A stretch of 54,129 nt of DNA from Pedosphaera parvula Ellin514. GTDB taxonomy: Bacteria; Verrucomicrobiota; Verrucomicrobiia; Limisphaerales; Pedosphaeraceae. A model generated the notes under the pieces. That model ran no database searches. It was given only the letters and a program-made list of their open reading frames with translations, and was not told the DNA's origin. Both the position numbers and the translations under genes were made by a program. This document shows positions 7,208-17,354 of this stretch, piece by piece; positions within the stretch are counted from its first letter, which is position 1, and each line of letters begins with the position of its first letter. The DNA lies in contig NZ_ABOX02000051.1 in assembly GCF_000172555.1 (NCBI RefSeq), forward strand, positions 1-54,129, written 5' to 3'.

Positions 7208-9847
7208 TTATTGAAGCCGGAGCCGGTAAAAGCGGGTTCGGTTTCCGGCGGGATTCGTCATCACGTTCTGACCGTTGATTATCTCCACGGCATCATTAGC
7301 ATTTGTCCAGGCTCCACTTCCCAGGCTCGAAGTGGTCTCCAGGACATATCCTGCCGCTTTGTACGGCCAACTCAATGTATCGGTTCCGATTCGCAGTTTT
7401 GGCGCAGGCACATCGCCATCCAAAACCCCATCGAGGTCGCGATCAATGGCCATGCGCACGCCCGAACCTGGCGGCACTCCCATAACGGTGAGCCGACCGC
7501 CGGCTTGAATTTTTTGGATCAGTTGCGTCCTCGAAAGCACAACATCTCTGGTGGAGTCCGGAGTATAATTTCTGGTGATGGGCTTATAAAGCAGACCACG
7601 CAGCCTGCCATCAATGACGCCTTTTACAACAAGGTCGATATTGGTCACTGCTGCCTGTGCTTCCAGCAAGTTCCAGTCGTTTGAAATACTCAGCGTGCTG
7701 ACGTTGGTCGACGCAACCGTACGCGTGTAGCCAACCGCGGGCGCTGTTCCGGTATCAAAGCATTGCACGAAGGCCCCGAGGTTCGCTTTGATGGTGGCGT
7801 TGCTTCGTATGTTTGCAAACACCGGACGGGACAGGAACGTGTTCAGGTTGTCATCATTGCCATCGTGCGTGAGTCCAAAGCCTCCAATGCTGTTAGTGCC
7901 GGGCGCACTATTGAAACTCATTTTTTGATAAACGTTCCGCAGCTGCGGGACTTTGAAGTCCTGCGATTCCTCCAAAGCCACCGCCGGAATGACAAGTTTG
8001 GTTGAACCTGGCCCGGGCGGAGCGTTGTGGCAGGTGTTGCAGGTCAATCCGAAATTATAATTATTGGTCAGAAACAGGCCGCGGCCTGCAACCGCGTTAC
8101 CACCCGCGAAGCTGGTGGGATAGCTGCGATCGAGGTTTTGGTTTGGATTCGGTTGAAACTTGATGGTGTTGATAAACGAACGATAGGCATCCATGTCCGC
8201 GGTGGAAAGCGGAGTGCCGCCCATCAGGCTGCCAAAAGCTCCATCGAAGTGCAGGAAGTTCGTGCGGTCTCCCCGCCAATGATAGGGCTCCATTCCAGCC
8301 AGACCACGCAAAGTCTGGGTGGTCATCGGTCCTTTCATGGGATGCTCCTGCAAAGTGATCGCAATTCCATTCGTGGTGAGAGTATTGACTGATTGCACGC
8401 TGCCATTGGGATCACCCAAGTCCCAGGCGAGCAAATCCATTTCGGCGTCAATGTGACAGGCAGCACAGGCGGCATTGCCGTTGCCGGAAAGTTTGGCGTC
8501 GTAAAGAAATCCGCGTCCATTGCGAATCACGGTCGGAGTAGGATCATAGCTGCCCACGGGAATTTCCTTCAGCACCGTGTTGGAACTGGTATCGACGAGA
8601 GTCAAGGTATTGGAAATGCGATTCAGGACGTAGAGGCGTTGGGCACCGGCATTAAGCGCCAATCCGCGCGGGCCGCGCTTGCTTTTGGAGTCTGTAACGG
8701 AACCAGGAGTCGAGCCAATCTCGATGCGGGCAAGAACATTTCCGTTTGGGTCCACCTTGCCAACCCTGTCTGTTCCAAAGGCGGCGACGTAAAAGTAATT
8801 GCCGGTTGGATCGAACACAATTCCCGTGGGCTGCGCCAAGGCGTTGGTTTTGGCGGGCAGGTTCGGCAGGACGCTGTAATTGACGCCGGGATTCAGATCA
8901 AAGTATGTGGAGACGCCGTTGGTTATATTGATGCGGGTCACGCGATTATCCACGATATGTGCGCGGACGTTTGGCTCAAAATGAATGAGATTCCTCGAAT
9001 CGGTATTTGCGATAAACAGGTCTCCACTTCCCGGTCGGATGGCAATTCCGAGATTTACCGTGCCCACGTTTGTGAAGTAGCGGGAAATCGTGAGTTTGCT
9101 GACGTCAATCTCAACGACATCATTGTCCGGCATTTTGTAAGCCACATGGTTGGTGCCGGGATTGTGCGCGTCTACGATCAAGCCCACCTGCGGTGGTGCA
9201 GGAAGACTCGTATTCGTCGGCTTGGATTGGGGAGGTGCGCTGGCTGGTGGAATCAGCGTGGTATGATTTCCTGAGAGCGCAAACACCGCATAAACCTTCG
9301 TTTCGTTCGTGTTGACGGCCAAGGCGCGGGGATTTTCGCCAAAAAGCGGGATGCTCGCCAACTGAACGTGATTGGTCACATCGAACACAACCACGCGATT
9401 TTTGCGTGCCGCCGTCACAAAGGCCTTGCCACCAGCGAAAACCACATCGGCCGGTTCATCCTTCACGTACAATGTGTCCACCACCATCTTTTGGGAAACT
9501 GAAACAATGCTGACGCTATCGGAGACTTCGTTGACCACCCAGACTTCGTCCGGAGTTCTTGGATTGACCGACACCGGTTCCACGCCGACAGGAATTTCTG
9601 CAATCAAAAGCGGATTGGAGGGTTTGGTAACATCGAAAACGGAAAGTCGCGCATCGGGGGTATTCACCGCAAACAACCTCGTGCCGTCCTGCGATAATCT
9701 TACCGGGCTGGTTTGTTTGCCTTCAAAATTGACGTAACTGGTTTGTGCAAAGATGCCGTTCGACAGGCAGATGAAGAGGCAGCGCAAAAACCATAATGAG
9801 AGCCTTTGTTTTGGATGCTGATCAAACCGGTTTGATTGGTCGGGCAT
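7208..9847 (-). CDS. YVTN beta-propeller / di-heme cytochrome c secreted protein
   Basis: About 879 residues from the ATG at 9847. A TTG at 9952 would add 35 residues, but the signal peptide (LSLWFLRCLFICLSNGIFAQ) follows the ATG, so I prefer the shorter form. The N-terminal half is a YVTN-type propeller (LFAVNTPDARLSVFDVTKPS; VFDPTGNYFYVAAFGTDRVG). The C-terminal half has two CxxCH heme sites, CAACH (8453-8467) and CNTCH (8027-8041), with MaxG/cytochrome-peroxidase-like surroundings (MKGPMTTQTLRGLAGMEPYHWRG is split across this area). It ends in a module LSWPYKAAGYVLETT ... RFYRLRLQ that I associate with secreted Verrucomicrobia proteins. A periplasmic redox or electron-transfer role is likely; the substrate is unknown. 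Confidence 0.88.
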   Translation of the reverse strand: MPDQSNRFDQHPKQRLSLWFLRCLFICLSNGIFAQTSYVNFEGKQTSPVRLSQDGTRLFAVNTPDARLSVFDVTKPSNPLLIAEIPVGVEPVSVNPRTPDEVWVVNEVSDSVSIVSVSQKMVVDTLYVKDEPADVVFAGGKAFVTAARKNRVVVFDVTNHVQLASIPLFGENPRALAVNTNETKVYAVFALSGNHTTLIPPASAPPQSKPTNTSLPAPPQVGLIVDAHNPGTNHVAYKMPDNDVVEIDVSKLTISRYFTNVGTVNLGIAIRPGSGDLFIANTDSRNLIHFEPNVRAHIVDNRVTRINITNGVSTYFDLNPGVNYSVLPNLPAKTNALAQPTGIVFDPTGNYFYVAAFGTDRVGKVDPNGNVLARIEIGSTPGSVTDSKSKRGPRGLALNAGAQRLYVLNRISNTLTLVDTSSNTVLKEIPVGSYDPTPTVIRNGRGFLYDAKLSGNGNAACAACHIDAEMDLLAWDLGDPNGSVQSVNTLTTNGIAITLQEHPMKGPMTTQTLRGLAGMEPYHWRGDRTNFLHFDGAFGSLMGGTPLSTADMDAYRSFINTIKFQPNPNQNLDRSYPTSFAGGNAVAGRGLFLTNNYNFGLTCNTCHNAPPGPGSTKLVIPAVALEESQDFKVPQLRNVYQKMSFNSAPGTNSIGGFGLTHDGNDDNLNTFLSRPVFANIRSNATIKANLGAFVQCFDTGTAPAVGYTRTVASTNVSTLSISNDWNLLEAQAAVTNIDLVVKGVIDGRLRGLLYKPITRNYTPDSTRDVVLSRTQLIQKIQAGGRLTVMGVPPGSGVRMAIDRDLDGVLDGDVPAPKLRIGTDTLSWPYKAAGYVLETTSSLGSGAWTNANDAVEIINGQNVMTNPAGNRTRFYRLRLQ

Positions 9848-9961
9848 AAAATTCCAAACAGCGAATGTGCTGACAGATGGTCTGTGGGGACATGGTAGGC
9901 AACCAGAGCCGCGTTTCAAGCCAAATGGCCAGGCGTCAAATAAGCAGGTCAATTTTCAAAT

Positions 9962-11254: not shown

Positions 11255-12031
11255 GTGAGCACAACCGAGAGCATCAAAGCCAATTCCCGAACCACTCCGC
11301 CTTGGGGCGAGATTGCGCGCCAGCCGGTGTTTGCCACCACTCATTGGTCTGTGGTCCTGACGGCAGGGCGAAATGATCTTCCCCAGGCGCAGGATGCCCT
11401 GGAAAAACTTTGCCAGACCTATTGGTATCCACTCTACGTTTACGTGCGGCGGCGGGGATATGCCCAGGTGGATGCCGAGGATCTGACACAGAAATTCTTC
11501 GAGTGGTTGCTGGAGCGAAACTGGCTGGGACAGGCGGACCAGCAACGCGGTCGGTTCCGCTCCTTCCTCCTGACCAGCTTGAGCCGGTTCCTGGCGAACG
11601 AATGGGACAAGGCCAGGGCGCAAAAGCGGGGTCGTGGCCGGGTTGTGTCCCTGAATTTCGAAGACGCAGAAAATGGCTGCGCCCGGGAGCCGGTGGACAA
11701 CGTCAGCCCGGAACAGAGTTTTGAATGGCGTTGGGCGCTGACCTTGTTGGACCAGGTCCTAAACCGGCTCTGTGCTGAATATGCAGCTCAAGGGAAGGCG
11801 GAATTATTTGCGGAACTGAAACCATGCCTGTTGGGCGAACGTGCGGCGCAACCCTACGCCATGTTGGCGTCCAAGCTGGGTATGACTGAAGGTTCGGTAA
11901 AAGTGGTGGTGCACCGGTTGCGTCAGCGGTATCGGCAATTGCTCCGGGATGAAATAGCCAATACGGTGGCAACACCGGAGGAAGTTGAAGAGGAATTGCG
12001 TCACTTATTTACCGTGCTGGCAAGACGATGA
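11255..12031 (+). CDS. ECF-type RNA polymerase sigma factor linked to a Ser/Thr kinase
   Basis: 258 residues from a GTG start. FATTHWSVVL (26-35) is the N-terminal motif of the sigma factors found beside Ser/Thr kinases in Verrucomicrobia, Planctomycetes and relatives. Region 2 spans about 45-120, with DLTQKFFEWLLE binding core polymerase. Region 4 (about 199-232, LASKLGMTEGSVKVVVHRLR) is the helix-turn-helix that reads the -35 element. The acidic C-terminal tail (EEVEEELRHLF) is also typical. The kinase gene follows 102 bp downstream behind its own promoter-like element, so this factor probably activates the kinase and TM2 transcripts and may be controlled by phosphorylation. That link is inferred. 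Confidence 0.9.
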   Translation: MSTTESIKANSRTTPPWGEIARQPVFATTHWSVVLTAGRNDLPQAQDALEKLCQTYWYPLYVYVRRRGYAQVDAEDLTQKFFEWLLERNWLGQADQQRGRFRSFLLTSLSRFLANEWDKARAQKRGRGRVVSLNFEDAENGCAREPVDNVSPEQSFEWRWALTLLDQVLNRLCAEYAAQGKAELFAELKPCLLGERAAQPYAMLASKLGMTEGSVKVVVHRLRQRYRQLLRDEIANTVATPEEVEEELRHLFTVLARR

Positions 12032-12086
12032 CTGAGGTTGACCCTCTCAAAAATATTCCCTCAACACGGAGTGCTCTTATTTCCTG

Positions 12087-12114
12087 TGTAACCTTTCACC
12101 TGCTTTCCTTTATA
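12087..12114 (+). promoter_or_regulatory. Putative ECF-sigma promoter before the kinase gene
   Basis: TGTAACC (12087-12093) and CCTTTATA (12107-12114) are separated by 13 bp. The same two blocks with the same 13 bp spacing recur at 14363-14390 before the TM2 gene. GTAAC at -35 is a common ECF motif. The pairing suggests recognition by the sigma factor encoded just upstream. Confidence 0.65.
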
Positions 12115-12133
12115 ACAGGGTGAAAGAATTAAT

Positions 12134-14311
12134 ATGGATGCAACCCAGATTTGTCCAACCTGCGGAAAAGCGGTAGTTCCAGACGCGCCGCAGGGCCTCT
12201 GCCCGGAGTGCCTGATAAAATCCGGTTTTGAAACCAAGGCGGGGAACGAACCTGCGGGCGGAAAATCGGCCTTTGTGCCACCCACTGTTGAGCAGATTGC
12301 CAAACTTTTTCCGCAATTCGAAATCAATGAACTTCTTGGCCATGGTGGCATGGGTGCGGTTTATAAAGCCCGCCAGCCACGATTGGACCGCTGGGTGGCG
12401 TTGAAGATCCTGGCACCGGAAAGACAGACTGACCCGCAATTTGCGGAACGATTCGAACGCGAAGCGCGTGCCCTGGCCTGGTTGAATCATCCAAACATCG
12501 TCACGGTTTACGACTTCGGCGAGACGCAGGGACATTATTATCTGCTGATGGAGTTTGTGGACGGGTTGACACTGCGCCAATTTCTGCAAGCGCGAAAACT
12601 CTCGCCGGAGGAATCGTTGATCATCATACCGCAGATTTGCCAGGCGCTGCAATACGCCCACGAGCATGGCATCATTCATCGCGATATAAAGCCGGAAAAC
12701 ATCCTGATCGACAAAGATAGCAACGTGAAAATCGCCGACTTCGGCATCGCCAAGCTTCTCGATCAGGAACCGCAGAATATTTCGCTCACCGGTGCACAGG
12801 ACGTGATGGGCACACCGCATTACATGGCGCCAGAACAGATCGAGAAACCGCAAACCGTGGATTATCGCGCGGACATCTATTCACTGGGTGTCGTGTTCTA
12901 TGAAATGCTTACCGGCGAACTGCCGCTCGGAAATTTTCAACGGCCATCGCAAAAAGCTCACATAGATGTGCGCCTCGATGAAGTGGTGCTGCACGCCCTG
13001 GAAAAGGATCCGGAACGTCGTTACCAAAAAGTTAGCCAGGTAAAAACGGACGTGGAAACCATCGCGGCGACACCTGATCACGTGGAGCCTCCCATTTCGC
13101 GCACTCCGCCGCCAATTCCAAAAGCGACACCCCCTCCAACGGGAATGTCCTTCGGCTGGAAAATAGCAATTGGGATTGCCGGGCTTGGTGCGGCTCTGTT
13201 GCTCATTGCTGTTTGCGTAGTTCTATTTTTTGCCGGAACGAAGCCGAAGCAATCCCAGACGTTGGCGGCAGGCGACCTCGTCAGCTCGAATGCATTCTGG
13301 AACTTGTTGAACGCAGACCAGCGTCTCGTGGTGCAATATACCGACTACAAATTCCACAAGTATTTTGACGCGCGCACTTTTGAAGGCTGGTCGAACGAGG
13401 AGCGCACCAATCTGGAGCGGCGGCTGATTGACACAATCAAAGGACCCCATTCAGAGGAGTATTACCTGGCCATCAATTCACTCGCCTCTTTGCATTCCAC
13501 GAACGCGGTGCCTCTCCTGCTGGAGATGGCATTGGACCATAGAGCCTCGATCGTGCGGTTGGAGACCAGTAACCGGCACCGCTGGATGGCCATTCGCGCA
13601 ATGGGTATTATTGGAGACCGGACCGTCGTGCCCAAATTGATCCACCTGCTTTATCACAACAATCCACACATTCGCTGGTGGGCACAGGTTTCCCTGGTGA
13701 GGCTGACCAGCCAGAATTTTGGCACCGATTGGAAGGCGTGGGGAAGTTGGTGGAGTTCCCAAAACCGGCAACCGCCATTCAATTCAGAGATCATTCATTG
13801 GTGGCGGGGTCAGGCTGAACCAAATCAACTCACCAAAGAATTCGCAGAAGCCGATCCAAAATTTCTTAAAAACCTCGAAGCCAGCCTATACAAAATGGGG
13901 TTTCCGGGCACGTTGACAAACGCGGCTATGGACACCGGCAAGGCGCAGGCAATTACAACACCAACAACCAACGCCCAAACCAACTCCATGACTCCTACAT
14001 TGGACATTGATCCTGGCGACGGCACGAAGGCCATACAAAATCCGACCGAAGCCAACATTCGCAAAGCCGTAGCCTCACTCCGAGGCGATGCCGAGCCCGG
14101 CTTTCTAATTCTTCACAAGGACGCTGAAAACATGCTTCAGGCTACTTGCCTGGCGAAGGATTCCTTTACCATACAGTTACAGGAAGGCGGCGAGCAGCAT
14201 CAATATCAGGCCACGAAAAATCTTTCCGCTGATACCACCACGAAGTTGTTGCTTGCCTATCGAAACGGTGACCCGGACTGGAAGATGTTCGCGGATTGGA
14301 AGCCGCTGTAA
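12134..14311 (+). CDS. Membrane Ser/Thr protein kinase with N-terminal zinc ribbon
   Basis: 725 residues. A zinc ribbon is formed by C7-x2-C10 and C23-x2-C26. The Hanks-type kinase domain (about 62-310) is complete: glycine loop GHGGMGAVYKA (69-79), K91, HRDIKPEN (182-189), DFG (202-204) and APEQ (232-235). A proline-rich linker leads to one membrane helix (about 343-367). The external part has HEAT-like helices (about 435-545; WWAQVSLVRLT) and a 95-residue terminal domain (about 632-725) containing PTEANIRKAV and RNGDPDWKMFADWKPL. That last domain resembles the separate secreted protein at 14706. The kinase domain should be cytoplasmic and the C-terminal sensor periplasmic. An ECF-like promoter precedes it. 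Confidence 0.95.
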   Translation: MDATQICPTCGKAVVPDAPQGLCPECLIKSGFETKAGNEPAGGKSAFVPPTVEQIAKLFPQFEINELLGHGGMGAVYKARQPRLDRWVALKILAPERQTDPQFAERFEREARALAWLNHPNIVTVYDFGETQGHYYLLMEFVDGLTLRQFLQARKLSPEESLIIIPQICQALQYAHEHGIIHRDIKPENILIDKDSNVKIADFGIAKLLDQEPQNISLTGAQDVMGTPHYMAPEQIEKPQTVDYRADIYSLGVVFYEMLTGELPLGNFQRPSQKAHIDVRLDEVVLHALEKDPERRYQKVSQVKTDVETIAATPDHVEPPISRTPPPIPKATPPPTGMSFGWKIAIGIAGLGAALLLIAVCVVLFFAGTKPKQSQTLAAGDLVSSNAFWNLLNADQRLVVQYTDYKFHKYFDARTFEGWSNEERTNLERRLIDTIKGPHSEEYYLAINSLASLHSTNAVPLLLEMALDHRASIVRLETSNRHRWMAIRAMGIIGDRTVVPKLIHLLYHNNPHIRWWAQVSLVRLTSQNFGTDWKAWGSWWSSQNRQPPFNSEIIHWWRGQAEPNQLTKEFAEADPKFLKNLEASLYKMGFPGTLTNAAMDTGKAQAITTPTTNAQTNSMTPTLDIDPGDGTKAIQNPTEANIRKAVASLRGDAEPGFLILHKDAENMLQATCLAKDSFTIQLQEGGEQHQYQATKNLSADTTTKLLLAYRNGDPDWKMFADWKPL

Positions 14312-14362
14312 TAGGACCGATACGCCGGATTTACGTGCGTCGAATAATTGACGCATTCAGTT

Positions 14363-14390
14363 TGTAACCTCTCGTCTCCTTTCCTTTATA
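14363..14390 (+). promoter_or_regulatory. Putative ECF-sigma promoter before the TM2 gene
   Basis: TGTAACC (14363-14369), 13 bp, CCTTTATA (14383-14390), matching the element at 12087-12114; the spacer also shares CTTT before the second block. A small inverted repeat, TGCGTC/GACGCA, lies just upstream at 14336-14355 and may be a weak terminator of the kinase gene. Confidence 0.65.
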
Positions 14391-14457
14391 GATTGGTGGA
14401 ACTGATCTGCCTCGCGTAAACCACCGGGGCCATCAGTCCCACTAACAACTTAAAATT

Positions 14458-14679
14458 ATGACAGAAAAATCTGATAAAAAACGGCTCATTGCTTTCCTTC
14501 TCTGCTTCTTCCTGGGAGTATTTGGCGCTCACCGGTTCTACGTCGGCAAAGCAGGCACTGCCATTTTACAAATTTTTACCTTCGGCGGCCTGGGCATCTG
14601 GTGCCTGGTGGATGTGATTATGATTCTCACCGGTTCATTTAAAGATAAGCAGGCCCGCAAATTGGAAGATTGGAAATAA
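14458..14679 (+). CDS. TM2 domain membrane protein
   Basis: 73 residues with the TM2 signature: a charged N-terminus (MTEKSDKKR), first helix IAFLLCFFLGVFGAHRFYVG, then the glycine-rich second helix FGGLGIWCLVDVIMIL. The motif GAHRFYVGK is the family hallmark. TM2 proteins are small two-helix inner-membrane proteins of poorly known function, often found next to signalling genes. It is the first gene of a likely two-gene unit with 14706, 26 bp downstream, and stands behind the ECF-like promoter, so it probably belongs to the same regulon as the kinase. Confidence 0.92.
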   Translation: MTEKSDKKRLIAFLLCFFLGVFGAHRFYVGKAGTAILQIFTFGGLGIWCLVDVIMILTGSFKDKQARKLEDWK

Positions 14680-14705
14680 ACTCTCCTCATAAAAGGGGCG
14701 TAATT

Positions 14706-15137
14706 ATGAAAATTCAACAAATCATTCCGTTATTGGTGTTACTTGGTTTTTGCGCCGCCAGCGCACAAACGATTAATTCAACCGCCACCACAACCGCGAC
14801 AACCAGGACAAAGACCATGAGCTACAAATTGACGTTTTTCGACAGCCAGAAAACCATACCCAGCCCAACCGAAGCCGATATTCGGGCAGCCGTGACTTTG
14901 CATAAAGACGACTTCGGCCCAGTATTTATAATTGGTTTGGATGGCACGCACGGTTTTATTCGCGTCATTGCAGAGCAGGACAGCCATTTTTCATTTCAAT
15001 ACACCGTTGATGGGAGTGTTGTTTACATTTCCACAAAGGAAACCTTTTCAATTGAGGATGCAGTAAAGGTTTCGACAGCATATAAGAACGGTTCCGCAGA
15101 TTGGAAGAAGCTGGTGGATTGGAAAGAACTCAAATAG
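14706..15137 (+). CDS. Secreted protein resembling the kinase C-terminal domain
   Basis: 143 residues from the ATG at 14706, preceded by AAAAGGGGCG; an upstream in-frame start at 14670 would overlap the TM2 gene end and precede the signal peptide, so I reject it. Signal peptide: MKIQQIIPLLVLLGFCAASA. The mature part contains PSPTEADIRAAV and ends YKNGSADWKKLVDWKELK, matching the kinase tail (NPTEANIRKAV; YRNGDPDWKMFADWKPL) in order and spacing. It is thus a free, exported paralogue of that kinase domain. It may compete for the same ligand or bind the kinase's sensor region; that role is inference. Confidence 0.82.
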   Translation: MKIQQIIPLLVLLGFCAASAQTINSTATTTATTRTKTMSYKLTFFDSQKTIPSPTEADIRAAVTLHKDDFGPVFIIGLDGTHGFIRVIAEQDSHFSFQYTVDGSVVYISTKETFSIEDAVKVSTAYKNGSADWKKLVDWKELK

Positions 15138-15197
15138 TAAAAACCTTGTGTGACCTGACAAGAAAAGGAATGCAATTAACTAAATGACACCACGCTT

Positions 15198-15629
15198 ATG
15201 AAAACATTGATCTTTGCCCTCACCGCGATTTTGGTCCTCCGATTGCAACCGTTGCTGGCGGCATCGCCAGATGAAGAGGCGCGATTTGTCGCAGCCGTCA
15301 AGCAGGCTTTTGAGAAGCGTGACGCCGACGCTTTGATGACGCTTACCTGTTGGGATAGAGTGCCTGACAAATTCAAAGCGAGTGGCAGGAAGCAATATGC
15401 CAGAGATGCCAGGCAGGGAGCCACGGACTTCACACTCACGAATCCAGACCCAAACGAGCCTGATCTTGTTTGGAAAGACACAGATGGCGTCTCGTATCGC
15501 TCGAACCTTTCAGTCGTCAAGCAGTTCAAGATTACATTTACAAAGGGTGGCGAGTTCAAAGATGGCACGTATCCGGTTGGAGAGAAAGATGGGAAGTTAT
15601 ATTTGTTGGAACCAGCACCCGTAAAATGA
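15198..15629 (+). CDS. Secreted hypothetical protein, 143 residues
   Basis: Signal peptide MKTLIFALTAILVLRLQPLLAA, then a helical start (DEEARFVAAVKQAFEKRDADALMTL) reminiscent of NTF2/SnoaL-like small proteins, followed by charged strands and GTYPVGEKDGKLYLLEPAPVK. No family assigned. No convincing ribosome site is seen. It lies 60 bp after the kinase-tail paralogue and could be the third gene of that unit, but nothing beyond proximity supports a shared role. Confidence 0.72.
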   Translation: MKTLIFALTAILVLRLQPLLAASPDEEARFVAAVKQAFEKRDADALMTLTCWDRVPDKFKASGRKQYARDARQGATDFTLTNPDPNEPDLVWKDTDGVSYRSNLSVVKQFKITFTKGGEFKDGTYPVGEKDGKLYLLEPAPVK

Positions 15630-15737
15630 TGCCTCGCGAGTGGGAGGTGGCTCAGCTTTTTTCGTAGGCGGTTTATATCACCATGCATTTTTTTCCATTT
15701 ATTTTCGACTCGCAGCTTTGACCTTCGGCCTGGAAGG

Positions 15738-15830
15738 ACAAGGACCGTGGCGCCAAAAAGGATGAGATGCTGCGCTTGCAAAAACAGGTTTTTAGGATAA
15801 GACTCGTTTCACTTATGGAGAGCCCAGTGC
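15738..15830 (+). repeat. Dispersed repeat, copy B
   Basis: Partner of 9962-10048 (GATGAGATG at 15761, CTTGCAAAA, ACTCG, GGAGAG in the same order). It overlaps the start of the BamE-like lipoprotein gene. The GGAGAG may act as its ribosome site. Confidence 0.5.
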
Positions 15831-16201
15831 CGAAGCCGTTCATCAAGGTCCTGCTCAGTCTGCTTGTTGCTTGTGCCCTGTTTAGCTCATGCGAGACGGC
15901 GACAGTGGTTTCCACGCCGATTCAACCCGGCATGACCAAGGCCGAGTTGCGTTCCAACTTCGGCCCGCCGATTCGGAAGGTCGTTAATGATGATGGCAGT
16001 GAAGATTGGTTTTACCACTTCAGTTGTGAGCGCACACATACAGGGTCGTTCGTTGAATCTTCAGTCACGCCAGGAGACCCTTCACTCAACTATGGAACGA
16101 GTTCTTCCTGGTCGATGACCTTCAACGAGGGAGTCATCCGCCTCTCGAAAGACGGCGTGGTCACCGGCCAGATTCCACAGGGTCAAATCGTGCGATGGTG
16201 A
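15815..16201 (+). CDS. SmpA/OmlA (BamE)-like lipoprotein
   Basis: 128 residues. A lipoprotein leader ends in the lipobox LFSSC. PGMTKAELRSNFGPPIRKV is the SmpA/OmlA fold signature (GMTKxxVxxxLGxP). The family includes BamE, an outer-membrane assembly subunit, but many small paralogues have other or unknown roles; the neighbourhood gives no Bam genes, so I do not call bamE. The start is uncertain: the ATG at 15815, or the GTG at 15827 placed 4 bp after GGAGAG, which gives a more compact signal peptide. A further in-frame ATG at 15767 lies in the repeat. Confidence 0.78.
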   Translation: MESPVPKPFIKVLLSLLVACALFSSCETATVVSTPIQPGMTKAELRSNFGPPIRKVVNDDGSEDWFYHFSCERTHTGSFVESSVTPGDPSLNYGTSSSWSMTFNEGVIRLSKDGVVTGQIPQGQIVRW

Positions 16202-16322
16202 AAGTGCCCGGTAGATCCGGAGAACCCGCCATCGAATGTCACATTATGAGAGCACCGAAGATCAATTTACATCGGATGCGCAATCGACCAACTGACGCTC
16301 AACTCGTGATCTTTTGGTCTCC

Positions 16323-16808
16323 ATGCCAAAGTCTGCCTGCATGATCCTTGCCCTTGGCGCAGTCATCATCGGCGCGTTGGTGACGTCGATTGCATTTCTG
16401 CCGCCGCCGGGACGCCCCAATGTCACAGTGACACTTCTCGGTTATACGAATGACGCCACTGGCACCCGGCTCGCAAGAATTGCGGTCAACAATCTGAGCG
16501 CCTCCGCAATTCGGCGAGCTGCTCTCTACCACATTCAGATTCCAACACCAACAGGATGGACGAATTTATCTTACAGCCATTCGTTGGGCAGTGAAATGCT
16601 TGGCGCAGGCGCGTCACAGATTCTTACAGTGCCGTCGCCCACCAATCAGCCGTCGTGGAGGATTTCGTTTCTCACCTATCCCGATGCCGGGAAAGGACAG
16701 GTCGTAAAATGGGTGGTGACTGATCCTTTACTGCGCATCGGCCTGAAGCCAAGATACCGAATTATGTTCTACGAGATTCACGGCGACTGGATTGAAGGTG
16801 AGAAATGA
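16323..16808 (+). CDS. Membrane-anchored or secreted hypothetical protein
   Basis: 161 residues from the ATG at 16323 (a TTG nine bases earlier is the alternative). An N-terminal hydrophobic segment (MILALGAVIIGALVTSIAFL) is an anchor or signal. The rest is beta-rich, with NVTVTLLGYTNDATGTRLAR and a Ser/Pro stretch, like proteins of unknown function seen in multiple copies in Verrucomicrobia genomes. No motif suggests an activity. No ribosome site is obvious. Confidence 0.65.
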   Translation: MPKSACMILALGAVIIGALVTSIAFLPPPGRPNVTVTLLGYTNDATGTRLARIAVNNLSASAIRRAALYHIQIPTPTGWTNLSYSHSLGSEMLGAGASQILTVPSPTNQPSWRISFLTYPDAGKGQVVKWVVTDPLLRIGLKPRYRIMFYEIHGDWIEGEK

Positions 16809-16982
16809 TTGCAGGAATGCAGTTGAACCAGAATTTTCACGAAGAAACATGCATGGTGCGTGTGGTTCGGTGGAATCGCGGGGCACGTGCGCGAGCTGGG
16901 AAATTGCGTTTGCCTGGCGAGAAGTGTGATCCGGCTTATGCCGGGATGCCACGAGAGGATGGATGACCGGCGATGGGCTCCT

Positions 16983-17354
16983 TTATGGTCGCAGCAACCA
17001 TTCCAAGGCCTCCGACTCCGAAGCGAATATCTCGCACAACAGTCCACGATTTCGTGCGATCATGACACCGTAATGGTCCTCGCGGATGAATTCAGGGCGG
17101 CAGACCATCGCAACCTTGATTGGCGACGTGGCCTCAGCCGCAAGCCGCTCATTAAAAAAATATCTCGGGGCAGTCGTCGGCGGCTCAAATCCAGTCAGTC
17201 CGCTTACATCAACGAGCAGCTTCTCCGCGCCTTGATCGCAGGCGAGCCTGACTGCATCGCACACCAGGTTCGCGCATTCACCGAGCAAAACCTCTCCCTC
17301 TGGGTGAAAGGCAACATAGCCTTTTTTAGGTTCCAATTGAACAATTGTGCTCAT
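16983..17354 (-). CDS. SpoIIAA/STAS-like protein
   Basis: About 123 residues if started at the ATG at 17354 (MSTIVQLEPKKGYVAFHPEG); in-frame ATGs at 17381 and 17393 and the frame opening at 17444 are alternatives without better ribosome sites. The pattern of strand, helix, LLVDVSGLTGF strand, helix and the ending SESEALEWL fits the SpoIIAA-like/STAS-fold proteins that act as small regulatory or binding modules. The phosphorylatable Ser of classic anti-anti-sigma factors is not obvious. It is the only minus-strand gene in a plus-strand stretch. Function unknown. Confidence 0.65.
   Translation of the reverse strand: MSTIVQLEPKKGYVAFHPEGEVLLGECANLVCDAVRLACDQGAEKLLVDVSGLTGFEPPTTAPRYFFNERLAAEATSPIKVAMVCRPEFIREDHYGVMIARNRGLLCEIFASESEALEWLLRP

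Follow-up and report, generated by a model that had tools for sequence, protein, structure and literature searches.

The last 97 residues of a transmembrane serine/threonine kinase of Pedosphaera parvula Ellin514 recur in a free, probably exported protein whose gene lies downstream of the kinase gene. Both genes were found in a stretch of 54,129 nucleotides (nt) of contig NZ_ABOX02000051.1 (assembly GCF_000172555.1), hereafter the window, where the kinase gene adjoins a gene for a sigma factor resembling the extracytoplasmic function (ECF) type, and the free protein shares a predicted operon with a TM2-domain membrane protein (Table 1). Our preferred reading, held tentatively at a probability of roughly 0.4, is that an ECF sigma/receptor-kinase module with a captured sensor tip drives its own expression and that of a secreted twin of the tip, and that this twin sets the threshold of the kinase.

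The kinase tip and the free protein

The kinase tip (amino acids (aa) 629-725, positions 14018-14308) and the free protein (aa 46-142, positions 14841-15131) aligned without a gap, with 31 of 97 residues identical (32%) and an E-value of 2e-14 under composition-based statistics. The local score of 155 was 28 standard deviations (SD) above the mean of shuffled sequences (mean approximately 27, SD approximately 4.5, maximum 57; 2 x 5000 shuffles). On these sequence comparisons the homology of the two is certain, and an earlier note on this DNA was right that the last 95 or so residues of the kinase recur in the product of the gene that starts at 14706. The local alignment extended to 118 columns, again without a gap, into a threonine-rich stretch that begins right after the signal peptide of the free protein; this stretch is of low complexity and its share of the alignment is weak evidence. 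A chance resemblance or a low-complexity artefact, for which the threonine-rich linker could be cited, is refuted by the E-value and the shuffles; in addition, an unrooted tree of 16 rows placed the kinase domain beside the free protein and two relatives, L014 and L015 (97/96). We consider an artefact extremely improbable. No third copy of the domain was detected in the genome of P. parvula.

The AlphaFold2 models of the two domains had the same order of elements, namely a helix, four strands, two helices and a strand. Different predicted folds, which the earlier note had named as the outcome that would speak against its claim, were thus not seen. The likeness of the models was judged from element order and sequence, and the kinase-domain model was built from an alignment of three rows.

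The kinase comprises, in order, an N-terminal CxxC pair, the kinase domain with the catalytic motif HRDIKPEN, one transmembrane (TM) segment, a HEAT ectodomain and the C-terminal domain. Hydropathy analysis gave a single hydrophobic stretch at approximately aa 340-360, so the C-terminus should lie outside the cytoplasm. With a protein kinase domain that has the catalytic motifs, one TM segment and a C-terminal ectodomain, the protein belongs to the Hanks-type transmembrane kinases. Assignment to the PASTA-domain kinases of the PknB/Stk1 type was rejected: the NF033483 score of 323.6 bits (best stretch aa 62-319) was below the cut-off of 450, and the ectodomain showed HEAT, with PASTA not listed.

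The gene of the free protein is taken to start at the ATG at 14706, with a TTG at 14670 as an upstream alternative, and is separated from the TM2 gene by 26 nt. Its N-terminus, MKIQQIIPLLVLLGFCAASAQT, was judged by eye to be of the Sec type, consistent with the earlier description of the product as exported. The TM2 protein ends in DWK, much as the kinase and the free protein do, which is probably due to chance.

Table 1. Features of the kinase locus, in window positions.
Feature	Position	Strand	Evidence or remark
ECF-like sigma factor, 258 aa	11255..12031	+	TIGR02937 39 bits (below cut-off 42.9); DAEDLTQ at aa 73-79
ECF-type promoter-like element 1, TGTAACCTTTCACCTGCTTTCCTTTATA, 5' of kinase	12087..12114	+	
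Hanks-type transmembrane Ser/Thr kinase, 725 aa	12134..14311	+	PF00069 201 bits, aa 62-282
HEAT ectodomain module of kinase, approximately aa 376-587	13259..13894	+	HEAT_2 at aa 431-521
Kinase C-terminal domain, aa 629-725	14018..14308	+	Homology to free protein; AlphaFold2 mean pLDDT 84
ECF-type promoter-like element 2, TGTAACCTCTCGTCTCCTTTCCTTTATA, 5' of predicted TM2-free protein operon	14363..14390	+	
TM2-domain membrane protein, 73 aa	14458..14679	+	PF05154 75.5 bits
Free, probably exported protein, 143 aa, homologue of kinase C-terminal domain	14706..15137	+	AlphaFold2 mean pLDDT 88 for the domain
Small exported-looking protein	15198..15629	+	Looks like a former gene cassette
Decayed attC-like remnant	15631..15669	+	

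The shared promoter-like element and the sigma factor

A 28-nt element, TGTAACCTNTCNNCTNCTTTCCTTTATA, occurred at two sites in the 7.4-Mb genome when up to three mismatches were allowed, one 5' of the kinase gene and one 5' of the TM2 gene. The backward control of the same pattern gave no site in the genome; the pattern itself was derived from the two window sites. Both elements lie within a 39-nt direct repeat whose copies are 77% identical. Orthologues of the sigma factor and the kinase were found in the same order in two other genomes, G017 (identity 74% for the sigma factor and 83% for the N-terminal part of the kinase) and G066 (52% and 63%). At the equivalent place of the G017 pair the sequence is TGTAACTTTCCATCAGTTTTCCTTTATA, and G066 has a looser version 5' of its kinase gene. 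A pattern made from three sites, run over 196 genomes, matched twice in the genome of P. parvula, once in G017, 5' of the orthologous kinase gene, and once, with three mismatches, in G190.

Co-regulation of the kinase and the TM2-free protein operon is well supported by these sequences. Position and conservation suggest that the neighbouring sigma factor reads both elements. The earlier note had attributed one promoter type to the kinase, the TM2 protein and the free domain; this holds for the kinase gene and for the operon as a whole, but not for the free gene itself, which has no copy of the element 5' of 14706. A scan of positions 11900-15700 for sigma-70-type promoters and terminators gave sites that were not in excess of those in shuffled sequences, and an Rfam scan of the window at gathering scores gave no match.

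Known relatives of such an arrangement are PknT-EcfP and PknS-EcfK, in which sigma factors of group ECF43 are described as activated by the neighbouring Hanks kinase (PMC13147305, PMC8999054). The locus resembles these pairs in that an ECF-type sigma factor gene (11255-12031) adjoins the gene of a transmembrane Hanks kinase (from 12134), which is a feature of ECF43. It differs in its predicted targets, the kinase itself and the operon of the TM2 protein and the secreted twin, and in the core-binding motif DAED: ECF43 members are described as typically or always lacking it (PMC13147305, PMC8999054), whereas the window sigma factor keeps it. The motif reads DAEDLTQ in the window and G017 and DARDLTQ in G066. 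ECF43 membership was rejected because the replacement of DAED in region 2.2 by uncharged residues or threonine was not found.

Relatives of the domain and gene cassettes

The HEAT ectodomain had homologues at 50-60% identity in six of the 97 genomes searched. Twelve genomes matched in all: that of P. parvula, the six used here, four with weak HEAT matches, and G037 with a domain of the free type. All six alignments stopped before the C-terminal domain, at query positions 209-216 of 354. Two of the six homologues are the kinases of G017 and G066, and four are, by eye, free and exported-looking proteins, one of which has an in-frame TGA in the wider match. The C-terminal domain was absent from both orthologous kinases, and the G017 kinase (L097, G017:C105:18000-34000) carries a DUF3738 tail where the domain would be. 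Judged from these comparisons, parts of the kinase ectodomain (HEAT, the C-terminal domain and DUF3738) are common to, or have been exchanged with, families of exported proteins. The G017 kinase also has a longer, hydrophobic insert ahead of the HEAT region. The free HEAT proteins were seen at loci L086-L089, and at L087 the module lies behind a Big_5 domain.

As a control, other kinases of the P. parvula genome were inspected for a homologue of their C-terminal stretch encoded nearby. Four of 14 regions (L127, L129, L130 and L132) gave no kinase open reading frame (ORF) by the motif test and the kinase of L124 had no C-terminal stretch, which left nine other kinases (that of L131 without a TM segment) and the present one. 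Two of these ten kinases with a stretch longer than 60 aa had such a homologue, the kinase of this locus (E 5.8e-13) and that of L128. At L128 (G000:C3:291000-305796) the match is weak, with 22% identity over 285 aa to an adjacent ORF of 516 aa (E 5e-6).

Relatives of the domain were few. A single-sequence search with the free protein matched one of 196 genomes, its own. A two-row profile matched 11 of the 293 genomes of the order at E <=0.1, of which G254, G205 and G037 were clear matches besides P. parvula itself and the other seven (E 0.02-0.07) were counted as chance. The relatives in G254 and G205 look exported, have the same start and are 50% and 40% identical to the free protein. A five-row profile matched 10 of the 387 genomes of the phylum at E <=0.01, P. 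parvula included; by eye, a signal peptide is missing from most of these relatives, and a TM segment at the C-terminus is present in some. One sequence (L047, E 0.008) has an internal stop and was excluded from the family alignment (A6). Plasmids gave two weak Streptomyces matches (E 0.02), of which one was inspected and by eye looks like a member of the family. None of 30 viral stretches held a confirmed relative, a phage search with the L016 protein as sole query gave no match, and a sequence-profile search of the PDB gave matches at chance level only. In the literature listings searched, we recognised no description of this domain, its kinase or these cassettes.

The earlier note called the free protein a duplicate of the kinase domain, which the phylogeny does not favour. 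In the unrooted tree the free protein grouped with L014 and the cassette-borne L015 (95/92), two members of another, secreted protein family, and the kinase domain fell outside this group. Constraining the kinase domain to pair with the free protein of the same genome cost a dlnL of 10.5 (p-AU 0.062), so that the pairing is disfavoured although the threshold for rejection was not reached. The DNA identity of the tip and the free gene was just 50%, so their relation is not recent. Recent duplication within the genome is therefore disfavoured by the tree and by DNA identity, and not formally rejected. Since the free clade leaves out the kinase domain and the two orthologous kinases lack the domain, it fits better that the kinase captured its tip, and this is the probable course of events.

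The orthologue at L015 lies in a canonical gene cassette, with a 99-nt attC (GCCTAAC...GTTAGGC) on its 5' side and GCCTAAC after its stop codon. This attC (1266-1364, equivalent to L036:9414-9512) has complementary RYYYAAC/GTTRRRY ends and scored 113.5 bits against an attC model (A9) that it had itself helped to build; the 13 sites of the model were that of L015 and 12 plus-strand ones chosen from the listed sites, and the 5' core of the L060 site is off the strict motif. A search of 58 genomes for the 3' end of the L015 attC gave matches in 13, with 34 sites as compared with 10 in the backward control. At L025, the orthologue of the free gene is surrounded by small ORFs on the same strand, and the single attC-like site there is weak (16.6 bits, E 0.076). 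Approximately 3 kb from this orthologue is a gene 87% identical in DNA to the window gene at 15198-15629, the neighbour of the free gene. The two are identical in 396 of 456 aligned columns, and the homology stops at TGATGCCT. Immediately beyond the window gene, 30 of 32 nt within 15631-15669 agree with the attC family consensus in its 3' part; the score was 26, whereas the highest among 40 shuffles was 16. The covariance model gave this remnant an E-value of 0.69, and in a full-model scan of 13800-17000 it was the best match (12.0 bits); the second (11.3 bits, minus strand) lies within the gene at 15198-15629.

A cassette origin of the free gene in the window may be suggested from these relatives. 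The same observations, together with the free clade that leaves out the kinase domain, would suit a reading without a functional tie, in which a passenger of the cassette type, the free gene, inserted behind the promoter beside a module whose own related domain came by capture from the same gene pool. Against it, the only other copy of the kinase promoter element in the genome is that of the TM2-free protein operon, the two homologues come from neighbouring transcription units and have no further copy in the genome, and neither within the free gene nor at its edges did the scan of 13800-17000 give an attC-like match above 5.3 bits. We regard a passenger as the most credible of the alternatives, at perhaps one chance in four. 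The orthologue at L015 agrees with integron cassettes in lying between attC-type ends, and attC arrays without an integrase are matched by one on contig C15 of the P. parvula genome; the window free gene differs in being without an intact attC. The C15 array (L080, G000:C15:70000-84000) has eight plus-strand sites at E <1e-5 and one on the minus strand, together with two weak integron-integrase matches, one with an in-frame stop, and a third ORF similar by eye. From its sequence this array is a decayed integron. An integron integrase above the curated cut-off was found in none of the four genomes searched.

Elsewhere in the window, a 914-aa protein encoded on the minus strand (7208-9952) matched a lactonase-type beta-propeller and a MauG-type cytochrome c peroxidase.

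Possible roles of the secreted homologue

The predicted structure of the kinase domain most resembles that of an immunity protein. The model aligned with DddI (6u08_F) over 92 of 97 residues (Z 11.1, root-mean-square deviation 2.7, 8% identity), and the next match reached Z 5.2; 6u08_F is taken to be the immunity chain on the basis of chain length (123) and numbering. DddI is described as an immunity protein that blocks the deaminase toxin DddA (PMC10442228). W88 was the same in all 15 sequences of the family and W94 in nearly all. Imm1 is described as an alpha+beta family with a C-terminal aromatic residue and a tryptophan, with verrucomicrobia among its phyla (PMC3482391). What the domain shares with DddI (PDB 6u08) and Imm1 (PF14430) is thus a predicted fold and a C-terminal tryptophan; the low sequence identity, the exported or ectodomain setting, the absence of an Imm1 profile match and of a recognised toxin nearby set it apart. 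Membership in Imm1 was rejected, as none of 15 family members matched the Pfam profile. The genome of P. parvula gave no Imm1 match, and hhalign comparison with two Imm1 proteins, those above the cut-off among five Imm1 loci, gave a probability of 0.4%. Foldseek returned nothing at E <=0.001 for the kinase domain against the PDB or for the free domain against a viral library. For the free-protein model 6u08 was unlisted, the best of the 816 chains aligned having Z 4.6 in a list confined to chains that Foldseek had offered. No toxin was recognised by eye near 10 relatives, where several neighbours look like housekeeping genes and most were viewed without a profile search, and a Pfam scan of eight window ORFs around the locus gave none. 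PMC3482391 names P. parvula in connection with an RHS-type toxin and not with this domain.

An immunity role, which rests on the predicted fold, is kept as a minority reading. It would make the DddI-like kinase tip an integrated decoy that detects an incoming toxin while the module makes a soluble, exported immunity protein, and we consider it unlikely. Slightly less likely again is its fuller form, a guard-and-supply circuit in which the tip is a decoy of immunity fold and the sigma factor switches on an exported, soluble version of that fold, drawn from the mobile cassette pool, so that attack is both detected and neutralised.

The earlier note had suggested a ligand carrier, a decoy or a dimerisation partner as possible roles of the soluble protein. 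In our preferred reading, a sigma/kinase module buffered by its own secreted twin, the kinase would sense a periplasmic signal through the HEAT and C-terminal parts of its ectodomain and would activate the neighbouring sigma factor. The sigma factor would read two promoters, one 5' of the kinase gene and one 5' of the TM2-free protein operon. The exported twin would then meet the kinase ectodomain, sharing a ligand or a contact surface with it, and would set the kinase threshold by buffering in soluble form, presumably through negative feedback. Such buffering is plausible by analogy with CpxP, a periplasmic accessory protein that is described as binding the sensor kinase CpxA and shutting off its response (PMC4160245). 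In both cases a small exported protein is expected to tune a sensor kinase; however, CpxA belongs to a two-component system, and the exported protein here is a homologue of the sensor tip of the kinase. CpxP is not known to be a homologue of the CpxA sensor tip.

Several observations weigh against this reading. Next to the secreted orthologues of G254 and G205 there is neither a kinase nor a TM2 gene, and the promoter element occurs nowhere in these two genomes, so the family has a job independent of this kinase. Eight neighbouring ORFs of the orthologues in L025 and L015 matched no Pfam family above cut-off. The bare two-hexamer pattern, with three mismatches, was found five times in the window against 5.2 expected, so the promoter argument depends on the full 28-nt match. 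The two promoters could also be a side effect of a local duplication. As DAED is retained, the phosphorylation switch shown for ECF43 need not apply here.

The free protein may instead be a positive partner, a co-receptor that either captures or carries a ligand for delivery to the kinase or activates the kinase as a hetero-dimer with it. This draws on the same homology and co-regulation, and the alignment of the mature free protein to the kinase tip begins directly behind the signal peptide. The present results do not distinguish it from buffering; an induced positive partner would form a loop without a brake, which is an argument rather than evidence, and we think a co-receptor improbable, though less so than an immunity role.

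Pairs of sigma factors and Hanks kinases are widespread and their signals are mostly unknown. The predicted regulon here may consist of no more than two promoters, and one of them would make a secreted relative of the kinase sensor tip. Any binding partner of the soluble twin would be a candidate ligand of the kinase, which would make the signal testable. The locus also shows kinase ectodomain modules that exported proteins have in common with the kinases or have exchanged with them, and one of these exported families travels as a gene cassette.

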